From a virus: a stretch of DNA of 21,824 nt. The notes beneath the pieces were generated by a model. The model searched no databases. It saw only the letters and a program-made list of their open reading frames with translations, and was not told the DNA's origin. Each line of letters starts with the position of its first letter. Within the stretch, counting starts at the first letter, position 1. A program made the translations under genes and the position numbers. Positions 7,594 to 21,824 of this stretch are shown piece after piece. The DNA lies in IMG/VR virus record IMGVR_UViG_3300011114_000859, positions 1-21,824 of that record, one strand, 5' to 3'.

Positions 7594-7917
7594 ATGGAAC
7601 AAAAAGCTTTGTTACAAAAAATATCTGATGACCAAAATAGATTTATTCCTTTAATGGAAGAGATATTTAAAAATCAAAATGAATTTTCAGCTCTTCAATT
7701 ACAATATTTAAAAGATTCAGCTGTTAACTTTCAAAAGGTAATAGATATTGATAATTCAATTATAAACAATTGTCAGAATTCTATATTTAATGATTTTGAA
7801 GATAAGGCAACTCTTATTGATGTTGCTAATAATCATAAAAATTCATTAAAAGATAATCATAGTCGCTTAAAAGCTACTTATAATAAAATAAAAGAAATTG
7901 AAAAATGGCTAGTATGA
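7594..7917 (+). CDS. Small coiled-coil protein, unknown
   Basis: A 107-residue, mostly helical, Asn/Lys-rich protein. Its ATG follows the scaffold stop without a gap, with AAAGG upstream, and its end overlaps the endolysin start by 13 bp. Heptad-like patterns run through most of it (LLQKISDDQNRFIPLMEEI, SRLKATYNKIKEIEKWL). It has no membrane segment, so it is not an obvious holin or spanin, despite adjoining the endolysin. It could be a head or lysis accessory protein; the sequence does not say which. Confidence 0.65.
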   Translation: MEQKALLQKISDDQNRFIPLMEEIFKNQNEFSALQLQYLKDSAVNFQKVIDIDNSIINNCQNSIFNDFEDKATLIDVANNHKNSLKDNHSRLKATYNKIKEIEKWLV

Positions 7918-8255
7918 CTCTTCAGCAAAAACAATCATTATTTGCTAAAAATGTAGCATCTTTAATTGATTATATCTTTGCTAATAAATATTCGGTTACA
8001 TTTGGTGATGCTTATAGAAGTCCTGAACAGGCAGCATTAAATGCCCAATCAGGAAAAGGTATTGCAAACAGTCTTCATTGTAAAAGACTTGCTATTGATT
8101 TGAATTTATTTAATGTTGATGGTAAATATGTTGAAGATAAAATTGAATATCAAAAGTTTGGTATGTATTGGAAAAGTTTGAATCCTTCTAATAGATGGGG
8201 CGGTGATTTTAAAACACTCGTCGACTCAAATCATTTTGAGATGCAGGATATTTAA
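7905..8255 (+). CDS. Endolysin, M15-family zinc peptidase (L-Ala-D-Glu/VanY-like)
   Basis: Cuts peptide cross-links or stems of peptidoglycan to lyse the host. The 116 residues are a single M15 domain: SLHCKRLAIDLN (56-67) gives zinc ligands H58 and D65 in the S-x-H-x6-D pattern, and VDSNHFEM (106-113) gives the catalytic-type D107 and third ligand H110. YRSPEQAALNA (37-47) is also typical of M15C phage endolysins such as that of T5. No signal peptide or wall-binding domain is present, so a holin is needed. The ribosome site is weak; the 13-bp overlap suggests coupling to the previous gene. A second ATG at 7914 is possible. Confidence 0.88.
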   Translation: MASMTLQQKQSLFAKNVASLIDYIFANKYSVTFGDAYRSPEQAALNAQSGKGIANSLHCKRLAIDLNLFNVDGKYVEDKIEYQKFGMYWKSLNPSNRWGGDFKTLVDSNHFEMQDI

Positions 8256-8287
8256 AAATGCTTCATTTGTCCTCCTTTTTTGATCAT

Positions 8288-8319
8288 GGGACGCTCTCAT
8301 CAGGCGTCCCTATTTTTTT
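8288..8319 (+). terminator. Strong intrinsic terminator after the endolysin
   Basis: A perfect GC-rich 7-bp stem GGGACGC (8288-8294) / GCGTCCC (8304-8310) with a 9-base loop is followed by TATTTTTTT. It ends the scaffold/lysis transcript and isolates the capsid gene. Confidence 0.9.
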
Positions 8320-8321
8320 AG

Positions 8322-8351
8322 TTGCATCTATTTTCAAATATCTTCTATACT
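8322..8351 (+). promoter_or_regulatory. Candidate promoter of the major capsid gene
   Basis: TTGCAT (8322-8327) and TATACT (8346-8351) are separated by 18 bp directly after the terminator. The -10 box is good and the -35 box only partly matches sigma-70. An independent promoter is expected here, because the preceding terminator is strong and capsid protein is needed in large amounts. Confidence 0.5.
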
Positions 8352-8356
8352 AATTA

Positions 8357-8491
8357 CGAGCGTCAATTGGCCTATCGCTCAGGCTAAAAACTTCGGGCGT
8401 AAATCTGGGCATCGTCCACCCAATGGCGTAAATCAAGATCTCGCCAATCTTAAGGACATAGACAATTCGTTTATAACTTAAGGAAAACCTT
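8357..8491 (+). promoter_or_regulatory. GC-rich structured leader of the major capsid gene
   Basis: About 135 bp without a coding frame, clearly richer in GC than its surroundings. It holds a GAGCG/CGCTC stem (8358-8380) that competes with a GCCT/AGGC pairing, a TGGG/CCCA stem (8406-8422), a GGCG/CGCC stem (8425-8445), and the decamer GGCGTAAATC twice (8396-8405 and 8425-8434). CTTAAGGA also occurs twice, the second copy being the ribosome site, inside a mini-hairpin AAGG-AAAA-CCTT that touches the ATG. Possible roles: mRNA stability, translational control or regulator binding. Confidence 0.5.
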
Positions 8492-9439
8492 ATGGCAATC
8501 ACAACAACTTCGTCATTGCCGGCACCGGTACAGCAAAGCTTTTCTTATAAATTGCTTGCAGTTCCAGTTCCGAATATGATTCATAAAATCCCTGCGATGC
8601 TTAAAAATATGCCTCGTAATGGTGGTACAACTCTGCGTATGCGTAGATACAATCCATTAAACACAGCTCTTGTTCCATTAGGAAACACAGGCGTCACCCC
8701 TCCAGCACAACAATTAACTGCTGTAGATATTGATGCTAAAATTTCTTTCTACGGAACATATGTAATCTTAAACGAACAAGTTACACTTCAAAACCAAGAT
8801 CCTGTCTTGAATGAAGCTGCTGCTCGTTTAGGTGTTTCTCTTCGTCAAACAGAAGATGAACTAACAAGAGATATGCTTGCTTCAACAGCAGCATTTATCA
8901 ACTGTACAGCTGGTGTCAATGGTGACAACCCTACTGAGCTTACTCGTTCAGATGTTGATGATGTAGTTCGTGCTTTGCTTGGAAACAATGCATACACGAT
9001 CTTAGACAACATTGAAGGGGAAGATAAATTTGGTACAGCTCCTGTTCGTGATGCGTATTTTGCGCTTTGCCATACAGATCTTACTAAAGATATGGACTCA
9101 GTTGATGGATTCATTCAAAAAAATCAATATCCATCACCTATGAATGCATTGCGTTCAGAATGGGGTGCTATTGGTAACTTGAGATTCTTAGTTTCATCTA
9201 TTGGATCAATAACAAACAATGCTTCAAACTTAGGTGCGAACGTATATAACATTTTCTGTGTTGGTATGGAAGCTTATGCTTGTATTGAACAAGACGGATA
9301 TAGCGCAAGCTTTATTTTTCGTCCTCCAATGTACGATGGACCTTTGGCTCTTAATGCTTCTGTTGGTTACAAGTTTGCTGAAGTTCCACGTATTCTCAAT
9401 GACCTTTGGGTATTGAATCTACGTTGTACATTAGCGTAA
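8492..9439 (+). CDS. Major capsid protein, N4-gp56-like family
   Basis: Builds the icosahedral shell. The 315 residues show the order typical of the N4-gp56-type coat family: an N-terminal helix region, a segment with TTLRMRRYNPLNTALVPLG and a PPAQQLTAVDIDAKI stretch, then ISFYGTYVILNEQV, a long helix (AAARLGVSLRQTEDELTRDM), an Asn/Thr-rich central part, and C-terminal strands in YGFA-like and VLNLRC segments. It is shorter than N4's own coat protein. ATG 8492 has AAGGA upstream; codon use is richer in C than in neighbouring genes, as expected for a highly expressed gene. Scaffold lies upstream and structural genes follow. The family call is by pattern, without a search. Confidence 0.8.
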   Translation: MAITTTSSLPAPVQQSFSYKLLAVPVPNMIHKIPAMLKNMPRNGGTTLRMRRYNPLNTALVPLGNTGVTPPAQQLTAVDIDAKISFYGTYVILNEQVTLQNQDPVLNEAAARLGVSLRQTEDELTRDMLASTAAFINCTAGVNGDNPTELTRSDVDDVVRALLGNNAYTILDNIEGEDKFGTAPVRDAYFALCHTDLTKDMDSVDGFIQKNQYPSPMNALRSEWGAIGNLRFLVSSIGSITNNASNLGANVYNIFCVGMEAYACIEQDGYSASFIFRPPMYDGPLALNASVGYKFAEVPRILNDLWVLNLRCTLA

Positions 9440-18421: not shown

Positions 18422-18520
18422 TTAGTATCTAAGTATTAATGATTTAAATAATATATATGTAACTAATGCGCCCCAAACTAATGATCCAATAATTAATGCG
18501 TAGTTATTTAATTTGTTCAT
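18422..18520 (-). CDS. Very small membrane protein (32 aa)
   Basis: Starts at ATG 18520, inside the last codons of the HNH gene in another frame (17-bp overlap), with GGAAG nine bases upstream, and ends with TAA at 18422-18424. Apart from a short polar start (MNKLNNY) it is nearly all one transmembrane helix (ALIIGSLVWGALVTYILF) with a basic end. The overlap with HNH suggests translational coupling. No holin is seen next to the endolysin gene, so this and the following gene are candidates for holin/antiholin-type proteins; that is inference. It might also be a small membrane toxin. Confidence 0.55.
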   Translation of the reverse strand: MNKLNNYALIIGSLVWGALVTYILFKSLILRY

Positions 18521-19196
18521 TTACGTGCTTCCAGTTTTTATTTTTATAAATATTATCAATCATTTTTATGCTCACAGAAAACATTAATGATAATTGTTTT
18601 TGTGACATTGAATTAGTGGTTAATAATTCTCTGATTTTAATAACATCTTTTTCTTTTAATTTTGAACGCCAATGATTTTCACCAGATATAAATTTATTTT
18701 TTCTGTCATCATCTGGAGTCTTAATGTTTAAATGTTTCCAGCATTTTTTTGTTTTGATTCTGTAAACTATATGATTAGAAACATCCACAATTCTTGCTAT
18801 TTTTGAACTACAAATTCCTTCTTCTAATAATTTCTTAATATGAAGCGCTTGTTCATTTGTAATTCTTGCCGCTTTACTTTGTTCTCCAATATAAGTTATT
18901 TTTGGAGTAGATTGTCTATTACGATCCATCATATCTTTTGTATTTTGAGAATAGTCTCCTAAATATAAATGATCTACGCGAATGCAAGGTGGATTGTCGC
19001 ACTTATGAAGCACAAATAATCCATCAGGAATTAATCCATGATGCATAAACCATGAAAATCTATGAGCTCTGCGATAAGTGTTGCTATGAAAAGCTCCATA
19101 GCCATGTTCATCTTTTGCTCCAATAAATATCCAACATCCAGATTCTAGTTTTTCAATTTTTGAATTAAATCTATCAATATCAGATTGTTTTATCAT
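18504..19196 (-). CDS. HNH homing-type endonuclease with two C-terminal HTH repeats
   Basis: A 230-residue free-standing phage HNH nuclease. The N-terminal HNH_3-type domain has GCWIFIG (20-26), GYGAF (32-36), YRRAHRFSWFMHHG (41-54), then VLHKCDNPPCIRVDHLYLG (62-80): H64 and H76 with Cys 66 and 71, and N85 later. Two similar DNA-binding repeats follow (about 104-155 and 172-225), each starting GE/GEN, with a helix-turn-helix and ending in a W-K-H motif (CWKH, NWKH). They probably give site recognition. The start overlaps an RHH gene by 17 bp and the end overlaps a small membrane gene, so it is the middle of a minus-strand operon. AT-rich and opposite to its surroundings, it looks inserted. 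Confidence 0.85.
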   Translation of the reverse strand: MIKQSDIDRFNSKIEKLESGCWIFIGAKDEHGYGAFHSNTYRRAHRFSWFMHHGLIPDGLFVLHKCDNPPCIRVDHLYLGDYSQNTKDMMDRNRQSTPKITYIGEQSKAARITNEQALHIKKLLEEGICSSKIARIVDVSNHIVYRIKTKKCWKHLNIKTPDDDRKNKFISGENHWRSKLKEKDVIKIRELLTTNSMSQKQLSLMFSVSIKMIDNIYKNKNWKHVNEQIK

Positions 19197-19347
19197 ATTG
19201 TTCTTCTTTGAATATTTGATCGTTAATTATAGATGTAACATAGTCTTTCATTGTCACATTACGCTTTAAAGCTCTTTTTTTAATCTCATGATGCAGTTGA
19301 ACTGATATATGTATCAACAATGATTTTTCTGATTTTCGTATTTTCAT
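19180..19347 (-). CDS. Ribbon-helix-helix (Arc/MetJ-type) DNA-binding regulator, 55 aa
   Basis: ATG 19347 has a perfect GAGGTG site; the frame ends with TGA at 19180-19182, inside the HNH start (17-bp overlap). The protein shows the RHH pattern: a basic start (MKIRKSEK), a beta strand of alternating residues (SLLIHISVQL, about 9-18), helix A (HHEIKKRALKRN, about 19-30), the turn VT, and helix B (MKDYVTSIINDQIF, about 33-46), then a charged tail. RHH proteins bind operators as dimers through the strands. A perfect palindrome at its own promoter suggests autoregulation and control of the HNH gene. An antitoxin role is an alternative. It is too short for usual ORF filters. Confidence 0.75.
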   Translation of the reverse strand: MKIRKSEKSLLIHISVQLHHEIKKRALKRNVTMKDYVTSIINDQIFKEEQYDKTI

Positions 19348-19367
19348 ATATTACACCTCATATCTAT

Positions 19368-19395
19368 AACATATATTTATATAAATATATGTCAA
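19368..19395 (-). promoter_or_regulatory. Promoter of the RHH-HNH cassette
   Basis: On the minus strand a perfect TTGACA (19390-19395) is followed after 16 bp by TATGTT (19368-19373). The whole spacer and the -10 box lie inside the palindrome at 19369-19392, so a bound RHH dimer would block RNA polymerase. Confidence 0.55.
19369..19392. repeat. Perfect 24-bp palindrome, likely RHH operator
   Basis: ACATATATTTAT (19369-19380) is followed directly by its exact reverse complement ATAAATATATGT (19381-19392). It sits 21 bp before the RHH start codon and over its promoter. The AT-rich context makes short palindromes common, but 12 perfect pairs without a spacer are notable. Confidence 0.7.
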
Positions 19396-19472
19396 GTATA
19401 TCTTGCTTAAATATGAGTGTTGATTTTAAGTGTATATGTAAAATTTTTAATAATGTCTTTATGGAGATATAT

Positions 19473-21416
19473 ATGTCTATAAAAAAGAATTCAGCCTATG
19501 GGATTAATAATCCTCTTCAGGCTTTGGCGCCACAACCTATTATTGCTCAACGTACGCCCGTAGCTAACGACCAGGCCCCTATTGGCACTATTTGGATTGT
19601 TGAGCCATCAAATGTTTATTATGTGCTGACATCTAGTGGCACATGGACCGCTCAGGCTACCGGCTCGACGACAGTTGCTACTCTTGATATTACTGGTGGA
19701 GCTGGAACAGTTCTTACAGTTGATGCTGGTGGAGATACGGACTTAGGTGGTGATCTTGCTGTTGCTGGTGATACAGTAATGACAGGTGATCTAACTGTTA
19801 CTGGAGATATAGTTGCTAATGGGGATTTTGATATTTCATCAGCTCAAGCAATTTCGTTTACATCAACGGCAAACGTTTCTCCAGCTATTCTGTTTGAAAC
19901 AAATGGTGGAACAACTGAAACATTAAAGCTATATGCTAATCAAGGTACAGCTTTAGATTCAATATATCTTTTAAGTGATGCTGGTGGTATCAAACTTGAT
20001 GCATCTAAAGCTGACGTTGCGGCTATCAATCTTGTAGCTGGTGCTGGTGGTGTAAAAATAGACGCTGCACTTACTTCTGCTATTAATGTAACAGGTGCTG
20101 GTTCTGATATTCAATTGAATGCTACAGGTGGTTCTATTGCTGTTACAGCAACTGAAGCTACTGCTGGAGCAATCACTTTAAGCGCATCTGATGCTGCTGG
20201 TACTTTAATACTAGAAGGTGTTGGTGGAGCAACTTTAAGAACAACTAACGCTACTCTTGGTATTACTTCAGGAACTGGAACGTTAAACGTTTCTGCTGAT
20301 GCTGCTGCAACTACTGTAAACTTGGGAACTGGTGCTGCTGCTAAAACAGTTACGGTTGGTTCTGCGACTTCTACATCTGCTACAACAGTACGATCAGGAT
20401 CAGGCGCATTGAACGTTACTGCAACAGGTGGCGCATTGACTGTTAACTCAGGAGTTGGTGCTCTTGGTGTATCTACGGACGCTTCTGCTACTGTGGTTTC
20501 TTTGGGAACTGGTGCTGCTGCAAAAACTGTTACTCTTGGATCAACTAATACAACTTCTACGACAACAGTTCAATCTGGTTCTGGTGGTATAGCTGCTAAC
20601 TCAGGTACTGGTGCTGTTGGTATTTCAACTGATGCTGCTGCGACTTCTGTTTCTATAGCAACTGGAGCTGGTGTAAAAACTTTAGTTCTTGGAAGTACTA
20701 ATACAACTTCTATTTCTACTTTAACATCTGGTTCTGGTGGTGTAGTAATTACAGCAACAAACGGTGCTATCACTGCAAACTCAGGAACAGGTACTATTGG
20801 AGTTTCAGCAGATGCAACTGCAACTACTGTAAACTTGGGAACTGGAGCTGGAGTTAAAGGTGTTACCCTAGGAAGCACAAATACAACTTCTGCAACGACA
20901 GTTCAGTCTGGTTCTGGCGCATTAAATGTAACTTCTACTAATGGTGCCCTAACAGTTAATAGTGGAACAGGTGCTCTTGGAGTATCTACAGATGCTTCAG
21001 CTACTACTGTTTCTCTAGCAACAGGTGCAGCAGTAAAAACAGTTACTCTTGGTAGCACGAATACAACTTCTGTGACAACGGTAGCTTGTGGTACTGGTGG
21101 ATGTAACGTTGGTACTTCTGCAAATGCTCATGCAACTACTGTTGGTTCTACAACTGCTGCTGCTACATTGGTACTCCAAACGCCAACAGGAACAAACGTT
21201 CTTGCTGCTAATGGTTTGAGTGTTACAACTGCTGGTCGTGGACTATCTTTACCTGGTGGTGTATTAGTTCTTTCTGGATCTAGCTCTCCGAACACCGTCG
21301 TGACGGCACCTCAGGGCTCGTTATTCCTACGGACAGACGGATCAAGCACATCTACACGAGCTTATATCAACACTGATTCGGCAACCGCCTGGACAGCAAT
21401 AACAACTGCTTCCTAA
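19473..21416 (+). CDS. Tail fibre/shaft protein with 180-bp tandem repeats
   Basis: The frame runs back to 19320, but ATG 19473 with GGAG at 19463-19466 is the likely start, giving 647 residues. The first 60 or so (SIKKNSAYGINNPLQALAPQ...GTIWIVEPSNVYYVL) look like the virion anchor. A long Ala/Gly/Thr/Ser shaft follows, with 60-residue repeats starting GSTNTTS at 20358, 20538, 20691, 20871 and 21051, where GSGALNV, NSGTGALGVSTDA and SLGTGAAAKTV recur. The C-terminus (APQGSLFLRTDGSS...WTAITT) is a common end of phage structural proteins. The shaft probably forms a beta-helix-like fibre. Ends of the gene are richer in GC than the shaft. A fibre role is inferred. Confidence 0.75.
   Translation: MSIKKNSAYGINNPLQALAPQPIIAQRTPVANDQAPIGTIWIVEPSNVYYVLTSSGTWTAQATGSTTVATLDITGGAGTVLTVDAGGDTDLGGDLAVAGDTVMTGDLTVTGDIVANGDFDISSAQAISFTSTANVSPAILFETNGGTTETLKLYANQGTALDSIYLLSDAGGIKLDASKADVAAINLVAGAGGVKIDAALTSAINVTGAGSDIQLNATGGSIAVTATEATAGAITLSASDAAGTLILEGVGGATLRTTNATLGITSGTGTLNVSADAAATTVNLGTGAAAKTVTVGSATSTSATTVRSGSGALNVTATGGALTVNSGVGALGVSTDASATVVSLGTGAAAKTVTLGSTNTTSTTTVQSGSGGIAANSGTGAVGISTDAAATSVSIATGAGVKTLVLGSTNTTSISTLTSGSGGVVITATNGAITANSGTGTIGVSADATATTVNLGTGAGVKGVTLGSTNTTSATTVQSGSGALNVTSTNGALTVNSGTGALGVSTDASATTVSLATGAAVKTVTLGSTNTTSVTTVACGTGGCNVGTSANAHATTVGSTTAAATLVLQTPTGTNVLAANGLSVTTAGRGLSLPGGVLVLSGSSSPNTVVTAPQGSLFLRTDGSSTSTRAYINTDSATAWTAITTAS
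20358..21090 (+). repeat. Tandem 180-bp coding repeats in the fibre gene
   Basis: Repeat units begin at 20358, 20538, 20691, 20871 and 21051 (spacings 180, 153, 180 and 180 bp). The second unit lacks 27 bp (nine codons) after GSGG. The fifth is partial and diverges after about 13 codons, changing to a Cys-containing sequence (ACGTGGCNV). A related half-unit precedes the first. Confidence 0.8.
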
Positions 21417-21495
21417 GTAGACAAATGTAAATAACCAAGATAGAATCTTTAAATATTATTAATTAAATAAGGGTTCTATCTTGGAAGTAGACAAA
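21415..21495 (+). repeat. 11-bp direct repeats around a hairpin
   Basis: AAGTAGACAAA occurs at 21415-21425, overlapping the fibre stop, and again at 21485-21495, inside the first codons of the HNH gene. The 70-bp period encloses the hairpin at 21435-21484. Confidence 0.6.
21435..21484 (+). promoter_or_regulatory. Hairpin masking the ribosome site and TTG start of the HNH gene
   Basis: CCAAGATAGAA (21435-21445) pairs perfectly with TTCTATCTTGG (21474-21484), and weaker pairs extend inward to about 21451/21468, giving a stem of about 17 pairs. The right arm contains the AAGGG ribosome site (21469-21473) and the TTG start (21481-21483). No T-tract follows, so it is not a terminator. Read-through from the fibre gene would fold it and reduce translation. 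Confidence 0.6.
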
Positions 21496-21824
21496 AAGTG
21501 CTTACAGTGTTCAAAGGATTATATTCCTCGTAGTGATAACTTAAAAACATCTAAGTTTTGTTCTAGAAAATGTCAGCAACCATGGATAACTAAACAGTCT
21601 GTTTTAAAAATGAGAGAAAGATGGGCCAATGAAGATGCTGCTGTGAAGATGCAAGAATCATTTGACCGATTTGCTGTAAAGAAATCTGGTTGCTGGGATT
21701 GGAATGGATGTAAGTCTAATCTATATGGAGCATTTACTTTTAGAGGCAAAGTGTTTAAAGCCCACAGAGCTTCATGGGAGCTATATAGGGGACCTATTCC
21801 AGCTGGCATATGGGTTTTACATAG
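21481..21824 (+). CDS. HNH endonuclease with N-terminal Cys4 zinc finger (partial, runs off the edge)
   Basis: No ATG exists near the 5' end; the frame opens just after a TAA at 21460-21462 and TTG 21481 has AAGGG seven bases upstream, so TTG is the likely start. The 114 visible residues start LEVDKKCLQC and contain C7-x2-C10 and C27-x3-C31, a small zinc finger, then a basic helical linker and the beginning of an HNH_3-type domain: GCWDWNG (70-76), YGAF (82-85), FKAHRASWELYRGPIPAG (92-109) and WVLH (111-114), where the first His of the HNH core is reached. It matches the order in the nuclease at 18504-19196 but has a different N-terminus. It is probably a free-standing homing nuclease. Confidence 0.8.
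   Translation, partial: MEVDKKCLQCSKDYIPRSDNLKTSKFCSRKCQQPWITKQSVLKMRERWANEDAAVKMQESFDRFAVKKSGCWDWNGCKSNLYGAFTFRGKVFKAHRASWELYRGPIPAGIWVLH

Follow-up and report, generated by a model that had tools for sequence, protein, structure and literature searches.

What lies directly upstream of the capsid gene in this virus genome, and what could it do for the capsid mRNA? The window, by which we mean the whole stretch of DNA analysed, is the 21,824-base virus record IMGVR_UViG_3300011114_000859, in which Pfam and PHROG scans found a terminase, a P22-like portal, an M15 peptidase and other phage genes. The leader at positions 8357-8491, immediately 5' of the major capsid protein (MCP) gene, had been described in an earlier note, made from the letters alone, as a repeat-containing island of higher GC with competing stems, lying between a candidate promoter and an N4-gp56-like coat gene. 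That note proposed a new phage RNA element and named covariation over homologous leaders as the test. Our analyses leave very little doubt that the leader is conserved and structured as tandem H-type pseudoknots, three of them in the window. The element recurs 5' of homologous MCP genes and both of its helices covary strongly, which bears out the proposal of a new RNA element; the architecture itself, with the first pseudoknot starting at about the expected transcription start, had been overlooked.

Each unit has the layout S1 - UA.. - S2 - NYU - S1' - AN - S2', in which the pairing of the first stem (S1/S1') spans S2, and S2 pairs with the strand 3' of S1' (Table 1). The first loop (L1) is 2 nucleotides (nt) or longer, the second (L2) about 3 nt and the third (L3) about 2 nt. 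Across leaders the loop letters (UA.., NYU, AN) are conserved while the stem letters vary freely; units 2 and 3 of the window have only their S1-L1 letters in common.

A search of IMG/VR with the MCP protein returned at least 597 related stretches, of which the best 80 were used (best segment at least 83% identity). The 200 nt 5' of the MCP match were compared for 76 of these 80 loci, and most showed the pseudoknot pattern. For a strict choice of units we used only S1 and the loop letters, leaving the pairing of S2 as an independent test. This retrieved 87 units in 40 of 63 leaders, with none in the remaining 23, compared with 1.6 ± 1.3 units in Markov shuffles. S2 paired in 60 of the 87, compared with 17.5 ± 3.4 when the 3' strands were re-dealt (maximum 27 in 1000 deals). 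The formal covariation count was made on 65 units of one geometry, with ten chance-looking rows kept. In this set 94.7% of cells were paired, against 74.8 after shuffling; S1 contributed 100% by choice, and S2, which had played no part in the choice, paired in 87.6% of its cells. Cells changed on both sides numbered 87 (24.1 shuffled) and further pair types 25 (14.9 shuffled). Over both helices the covariation score reached 0.572, compared with 0.211 ± 0.016 in shuffles, none of 500 attaining the observed value, and it fell to 0.190 or less when the partner was slid by 1 to 3 columns. All seven pairs of the two helices showed change on both sides. Pairing was also specific to the unit, S2 matching its own partner in 156 of 238 cases but the partners of neighbours whose S2 differs in only 34 of 134 and 31 of 134. 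Conservation and covariation, on which the earlier note had staked its proposal, were both found.

Longer helices were also considered. Extending S1 by the flanking base gained little or no support in units with a 9- or 10-base gap (14 vs 12.3 and 15 vs 15.6 shuffled, respectively) and some support in the 11-base class (25 of 55 vs 17.9 shuffled). Likewise, a fourth inner S2 pair had little or no support at gaps of 9 (9 of 44 vs 8.8) and 10 bases (22 of 65 vs 17.6), and some at 11 (24 of 55 vs 15.1 shuffled).

The features that had first marked the leader out are explained in part by this architecture. The GGCGTAAATC repeat, at 8396 and 8425, comprises the first strand and loop of units 2 and 3, and the CTTAAGGA repeat, at 8449 and 8477, forms the two arms of a hairpin at the Shine-Dalgarno sequence. 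A repeated 10-mer arises in 2.5% of first-order Markov shuffles of the leader and is unlikely by chance, whereas a repeated 8-mer arises in 24%, so that the CTTAAGGA repeat alone is weak evidence. The label of a GC island is fair but modest: GC is 44.4% over 8357-8491 and 50.5% over 8357-8451, compared with 35.4% for the whole window and 39% for the MCP gene, which places the leader at the 94th percentile of 135-nt segments of the window. Its best nested fold (-32.6 kcal/mol, z -1.93) was equalled or bettered by 11 of 200 shuffles. Nested folding understates the structure because the helices cross, beyond what the folding program can draw, and on its own it would have given a false negative. 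A peptide-coding reading was rejected: although one frame is open over 8284-8481, no ordinary start for it was seen within the leader, and relatives differ so often in length that, judged by eye, the frame would not be kept.

We then analysed the distribution of the units among relatives. At a threshold of 21 a full unit caller found 261 units, and 83 of the 95 distinct leaders had two or more; at a threshold of 22 it found 236 units (73 of 95 leaders); three shuffled leader sets gave 13-23 and 10-17 units each, respectively. By eye, many of the 21 leaders called with fewer than two units hold uncounted units with other loop starts, and three of them (L084, L086 and L143) hold none. Unit 1 of the window was itself missed by the caller, which demands other L1 letters. 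Chaining the calls gave 71 arrays of 2-5 units with a median spacing of 28 nt, ending a median of 42 nt before the MCP start codon, with variable sequence in between. When a specific unit descriptor was scanned over 86 sequences (871 kb), 122 matches fell within 600 nt 5' of the MCP gene, 65 elsewhere on the plus strand and 83 on the minus strand, an enrichment of about 30-fold in the leader; six of the 65 look like real units (L066, L068), apparently displaced by an insertion. The pattern GACGTAN{4,14}TCGTC behaved similarly, 32 of its 33 exact matches lying in one place or tight cluster per contig and on one strand (15 contigs).

Scanning IMG/VR with two unit patterns retrieved 49 stretches, some on contigs already in the set. 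In 41 of them the match is followed by an MCP homologue (38-93% identity), and two more (L106, L124) break off within the beginning of the MCP gene. The six without an MCP homologue (L110, L112, L126, L128, L129 and L132), several of them in coding DNA by eye, look like chance. The element thus follows this gene across great divergence, down to MCPs only ~38% identical. The array is not universal. All seven array-less relatives checked (L084, L086, L143, L149, L150, L151 and L155) have an open frame of at least 151 codons that ends 11-33 nt before the MCP gene, leaving no room for a leader. Arrays were also absent from the weak proteobacterial homologues L161-L164 and from two cultured phages with distant MCP homologues (L082, L083), where the layout is tight (11-65 nt); in the cultured phages the MCP gene follows an open frame by 11 and 22 nt and no units were found. 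One isolated unit call each in three of the seven array-less relatives and in L164 is as expected of chance. Single-protein scans for more distant MCP relatives returned only 1, 2 and 3 loci.

In several relatives the MCP gene is split by intron-like insertions, either several within one gene (L086:7200-9400, L087:7600-9300) or near codons 9-14 (L038, L041, L045, L066, L068, L097 and L101); the MCP gene of the window has none. From their core letters (GACTTGG/GACTTGAA, CAAGGGGCAAG, CAGCCTGAACG) we take these insertions to be group I-like. Another insertion, at L121:1102-3543, lies inside a large terminase-like open reading frame (ORF), from 'CLSGESHILLPDGSFKLL' to 'LVHNSGKD', and is presumably an intein.

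The candidate promoter of the earlier note, TTGCAT and TATACT separated by 18 nt, was not listed by a stricter promoter scan, but relatives carry such boxes at the same place. When the 71 arrays were anchored on their first called unit, TTGCA appeared at about -35 and TATACT at about -12 to -7 relative to the unit. Taking as a -10 box any match to TANNNT in at least 5 of 6 letters that ends 4-7 nt before a unit, we found that 35 of the 71 first units had one, compared with 1 of 136 later units and 91 of 3550 random leader positions; 25 of the 35 also had TTG at -35, 16-19 nt before the -10 box. The order common to the arrays is a promoter of their own where visible, the knots at once, and a variable spacer. 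The spacing of the -10 box places the expected transcription start at the first stem or no more than ~2 nt from it (predicted at about 8357-8359 in the window), and the capsid mRNA should begin with a pseudoknot.

What such an mRNA would gain is suggested by this order, which in the window runs from the gene's own promoter through three small H-type pseudoknots and a short spacer to the ribosome-binding site and the MCP gene. We tentatively favour protection of the capsid mRNA by its 5'-terminal pseudoknot array, without yet calling this full mechanism probable. With a start so close to the first stem, the mRNA would have no free single-stranded 5' end. RppH and RNase E depend on single-stranded 5' ends, which accounts for the stabilisation of mRNAs by 5' structures, and the RNase J1 exonuclease accounts for the effect of 5' road-blocks, according to the relevant passages of PMC3997798. 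An mRNA beginning with stacked pseudoknots agrees well with this. Stacked compact knots could hinder starters of decay from the 5' end of either kind, RppH/RNase E or an RNase J-type 5'-3' exonuclease, and would so keep the late capsid mRNA alive. Extra copies would serve as back-up road-blocks, a role that suits the presence of several copies better than that of a single binding switch does. The last knot may also have been recruited as a gate for translation in roughly one array in three, that of the window among them, because its 3' strand has two possible partners, one inside the knot and the other at the Shine-Dalgarno site.

Several observations weigh against this picture. The start site, half-life and fold of the capsid mRNA are all predictions from sequence, and in 36 of the 71 arrays no clear -10 box stands 4-7 nt before the first unit; these misses include arrays whose true first unit escaped the caller, among them that of the window, where the caller took unit 2 as first and TATACT stands 6 nt before unit 1 (8358). 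One of the five covariation measures, the number of pairs with two-sided change, was 7 compared with 5.2 in shuffles and was reached by 22 of 500, and the sequences are related, so that counts are not independent events. A backward-read control of GACGTAN{4,14}TCGTC still matched 5 times, compared with 33. Finally, it is not obvious why protection should call for fixed letters in the loops (UA, U, A); their conservation hints at a particular tertiary fold or at a ligand protein.

The last point bears on an alternative that we consider unlikely but deserving of weight, namely that each knot is a protein-binding operator, and that a phage or host protein, by binding cooperatively to 2-5 sites, sets the timing of capsid translation or limits it. 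Keeping loop letters while stem letters vary is typical of a recognised fold, the copy number varies over just this range, and there is a precedent in the T4 gene 32 leader, where the account in PMC3014915 has gp32 binding a pseudoknot. However, there is no candidate protein, and the median of 42 nt from array to start codon and the variable sequence there speak against it.

The competing stems of the earlier note were located at the last knot and raise a second alternative. In the window, an alternative hairpin takes the 3' strand of the S2 helix of unit 3 and overlaps part of the Shine-Dalgarno sequence, so that hairpin and S2 are mutually exclusive. A helix of at least 6 base pairs between the 3' strand of the last unit, with the letters following it, and the Shine-Dalgarno strand is present in 23 of the 71 arrays, the window included, compared with 10.0 ± 2.4 when tails were dealt anew (maximum 17 in 200 deals) and with 4 of 136 non-last units. 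The mean helix score was 11.1, against 8.7 ± 0.25 re-dealt (69 of the 71 arrays), and in the 23 arrays the hairpin side has a median of -9.1 kcal/mol, whereas the S2 duplex alone is less stable (-2.3). These helices differ in sequence between arrays (for example, CTTGAAGTA/TATTTCAAG and CTTAGATTG/CAATTTAAG), which suggests selection in that group. An exchange between the two states, through folding kinetics, temperature or a ligand, could make the leader a translational switch. We regard this as rather improbable as the main job: the other 48 arrays, including many whose last S2 is GAG/CTC, have no such helix, so that a switch is not the common function, and the upstream units would be left unexplained. 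By eye, several leaders with a last S2 of GAG/CTC seem to have a further hairpin downstream of the array and upstream of the Shine-Dalgarno site (seen among L051, L060, L073, L074, L076, L115, L123 and L125). Its stem varies (for example, TTGCAC..GTGCAA), and GTTGTTTT and TTTGTTTTAAT letters lie close by.

Much less credible is an RNA decoy, in which the knots would be excised and would disarm a host defence that recognises pseudoknot RNAs. Here the analogy is to the type III toxin-antitoxin system ToxIN, whose ToxI RNA consists of tandem-repeat pseudoknots and which phage PhiTE escapes by expanding pseudo-ToxI repeats, as related in PMC3475682. ToxI-type repeats are near-identical within an array, whereas the stems of the leader differ from unit to unit, and a decoy would have no need to precede the capsid gene across phages that share only ~38% MCP identity. 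Repeats with inner symmetry beside a promoter could also bind a regulator or act as DNA in recombination or packaging, or be a remnant of such an element, but this is scarcely credible given that the crossing helices covary in fixed 5'-3' order with G-U pairs tolerated, that the clusters occupy one strand of each contig and that the array lies downstream of the -10 box where a box is seen.

Table 1. The capsid leader and its flanking features in the window
Feature	Position	Strand	Basis or remark
Intrinsic terminator-like hairpin, behind upstream genes	8288..8310	+	Terminator scan
-35 box TTGCAT	8322..8327	+	Sequence reading; 18-nt spacer to -10
-10 box TATACT	8346..8351	+	Sequence reading; relatives show such boxes at same place
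Pseudoknot unit 1	8358..8387	+	Sequence reading; homologous units covary
Unit 1 S1 GAGCG/CGCTC	8358-8362, 8376-8380	+	
Unit 1 L1	8363-8366	+	
Unit 1 S2 TTGGCC/GGCTAA	8367-8372, 8382-8387	+	
Unit 1 L2 TAT	8373-8375	+	
Pseudoknot unit 2	8395..8422	+	Sequence reading; homologous units covary
Unit 2 S1 GGGCG/CGTCC	8395-8399, 8413-8417	+	
Unit 2 L1 TAAATC	8400-8405	+	
Unit 2 S2 TGGG/CCCA	8406-8409, 8419-8422	+	
Unit 2 L2 CAT	8410-8412	+	
Pseudoknot unit 3 (last)	8424..8451	+	Sequence reading; homologous units covary
Unit 3 S1 TGGCG/CGCCA	8424-8428, 8442-8446	+	
Unit 3 L1 TAAATC	8429-8434	+	
Unit 3 S2 AAGA/TCTT	8435-8438, 8448-8451	+	
Unit 3 L2 TCT	8439-8441	+	
Alternative hairpin, TCTTAAG (8448-8454) with CTTAAGG (8477-8483)	8448..8483	+	Minimum free energy fold
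Shine-Dalgarno sequence AAGGA	8480..8484	+	Sequence reading
MCP gene	8492..9439	+	PHROG 1357 major head protein, E 7.4e-33; Pfam Phage_capsid_4

The name 'N4-gp56-like' for the coat gene proved loosely right. The gene matches PHROG 1357 and Phage_capsid_4, and the annotation 'N4-gp56 family major capsid protein' is carried by Pseudoalteromonas phage vB_Pun_Y3 (27% identity to the window MCP), whose E-value was the best of the 20 records listed out of 25. The upstream terminator was dropped as a fixed part of the arrangement, a strict scan being positive in 6 of 71 relatives (0-1 in shuffles). Just 5' of the leader is an M15 peptidase gene (7905-8255; Peptidase_M15_4, endolysin PHROGs). Towards the end of the window are an HNH endonuclease gene on the minus strand (18504-19196; Pfam HNH_3, E 1.6e-10) with a resolvase-type helix-turn-helix, perhaps a homing endonuclease; an ORF at 21481-21822 that resembles it by eye and has no Pfam match; and a 698-amino-acid ORF (19320-21416) with many near-repeats such as 'SLGTGAAAKTVTLGSTNTTSTTTVQSGSG' and no Pfam match, perhaps a tail or fibre protein.

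Five GTDB contigs carry MCP relatives, one each labelled Simkaniaceae, Parachlamydiaceae, Parachlamydia, Methanomicrobiales and Methylococcaceae. Among the 232 genomes in the phylum of the Simkaniaceae bin, 8 have an MCP relative, the main matches being at 38-82%; the phylum of the Methylococcaceae bin gave 7 of 299, six of them at 32% or less. Three of the eight genomes have arrays, with two strong called units in G144 and one called unit each, and more by eye, in G039 and G002; G001, G124, G165 and G217 lack them, and G004, which has intron-like insertions, gave no clear assignment. The MCP genes of G144 and G165 are on contigs of 40 and 36 kb, so that a binning error is possible. A chlamydial (Chlamydiota) host is likely but tentative.

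Taken together, these findings raise the possibility, which we consider doubtful in its full breadth, that tailed phages, probably those infecting chlamydiae and relatives of chlamydiae, have in common a widespread RNA class not described before, in which 2-5 promoter-locked pseudoknots would act as a structural 'cap' on the capsid mRNA and the last knot would double as a ribosome gate. Exonuclease-resistant RNA knots protect some eukaryotic RNA viruses, and the proposed cap may be likened to them. If the array stabilises mRNA, it would provide a ready-made compact part for 5' protection; if it binds a protein, it would reveal an unknown control of capsid production in phages probably of hard-to-grow intracellular bacteria.

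The 5'-terminal stabilising structures of bacterial mRNAs are typically simple hairpins, from which the leader differs by its conserved tandem pseudoknots with fixed loops. What the two would share is a fold right at the 5' terminus that blocks decay dependent on that end, in the terms of PMC3997798. A search of the open-access literature did not find a description of this tandem-pseudoknot capsid leader. Rfam 15 gave no match in the window at gathering score, and at E values up to 5 none at the leader, three sub-threshold matches lying elsewhere in the window. Over 20 related loci the only match at gathering score was a tRNA gene 5' of the capsid leader (L029:397-470; 66 bits), with no STAXI (RF01728). 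The T4 gene 32 leader is likewise a phage pseudoknot of two coaxial helices in a gene leader, and gp32 binds it 67 nt upstream of its own start codon and spreads over the ribosome-binding site, as described in part of PMC3014915; it is however a single knot rather than an array, before an SSB gene unrelated to the MCP. ToxI and phage pseudo-ToxI, in the account of PMC3475682, are also tandem pseudoknot units, but with near-identical 36-nt repeats and a cognate toxin, whereas the units of one leader are spaced by ~28 nt, differ in stem letters and precede the MCP gene; a Pfam scan of the 17 ORFs of the window found no toxin family, toxins elsewhere not having been searched. Among the tandem pseudoknot RNAs compared, STAXI is the closest by architecture, with two or three copies where the 71 leader arrays have 2-5, and its function is given as unknown in the text consulted from PMC2864571. 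Its covariance model gave no match, even at E up to 10, in 20 records that bear arrays, and weak STAXI matches mean little, as sub-cut-off ones occur in 7 of 14 control genomes. STAXI differs in its frequent UUCG tetraloops and in lying near DNA-binding or DNA-manipulating genes (ssb, integrase, topoisomerase and antirestriction genes of Enterobacteriales), whereas the leader arrays precede phage MCP genes. In the capsid leaders a comparable architecture goes with a single gene and with one position, next to the promoter, in a large data set with clean covariation, so that its function is directly testable with leader-reporter fusions.
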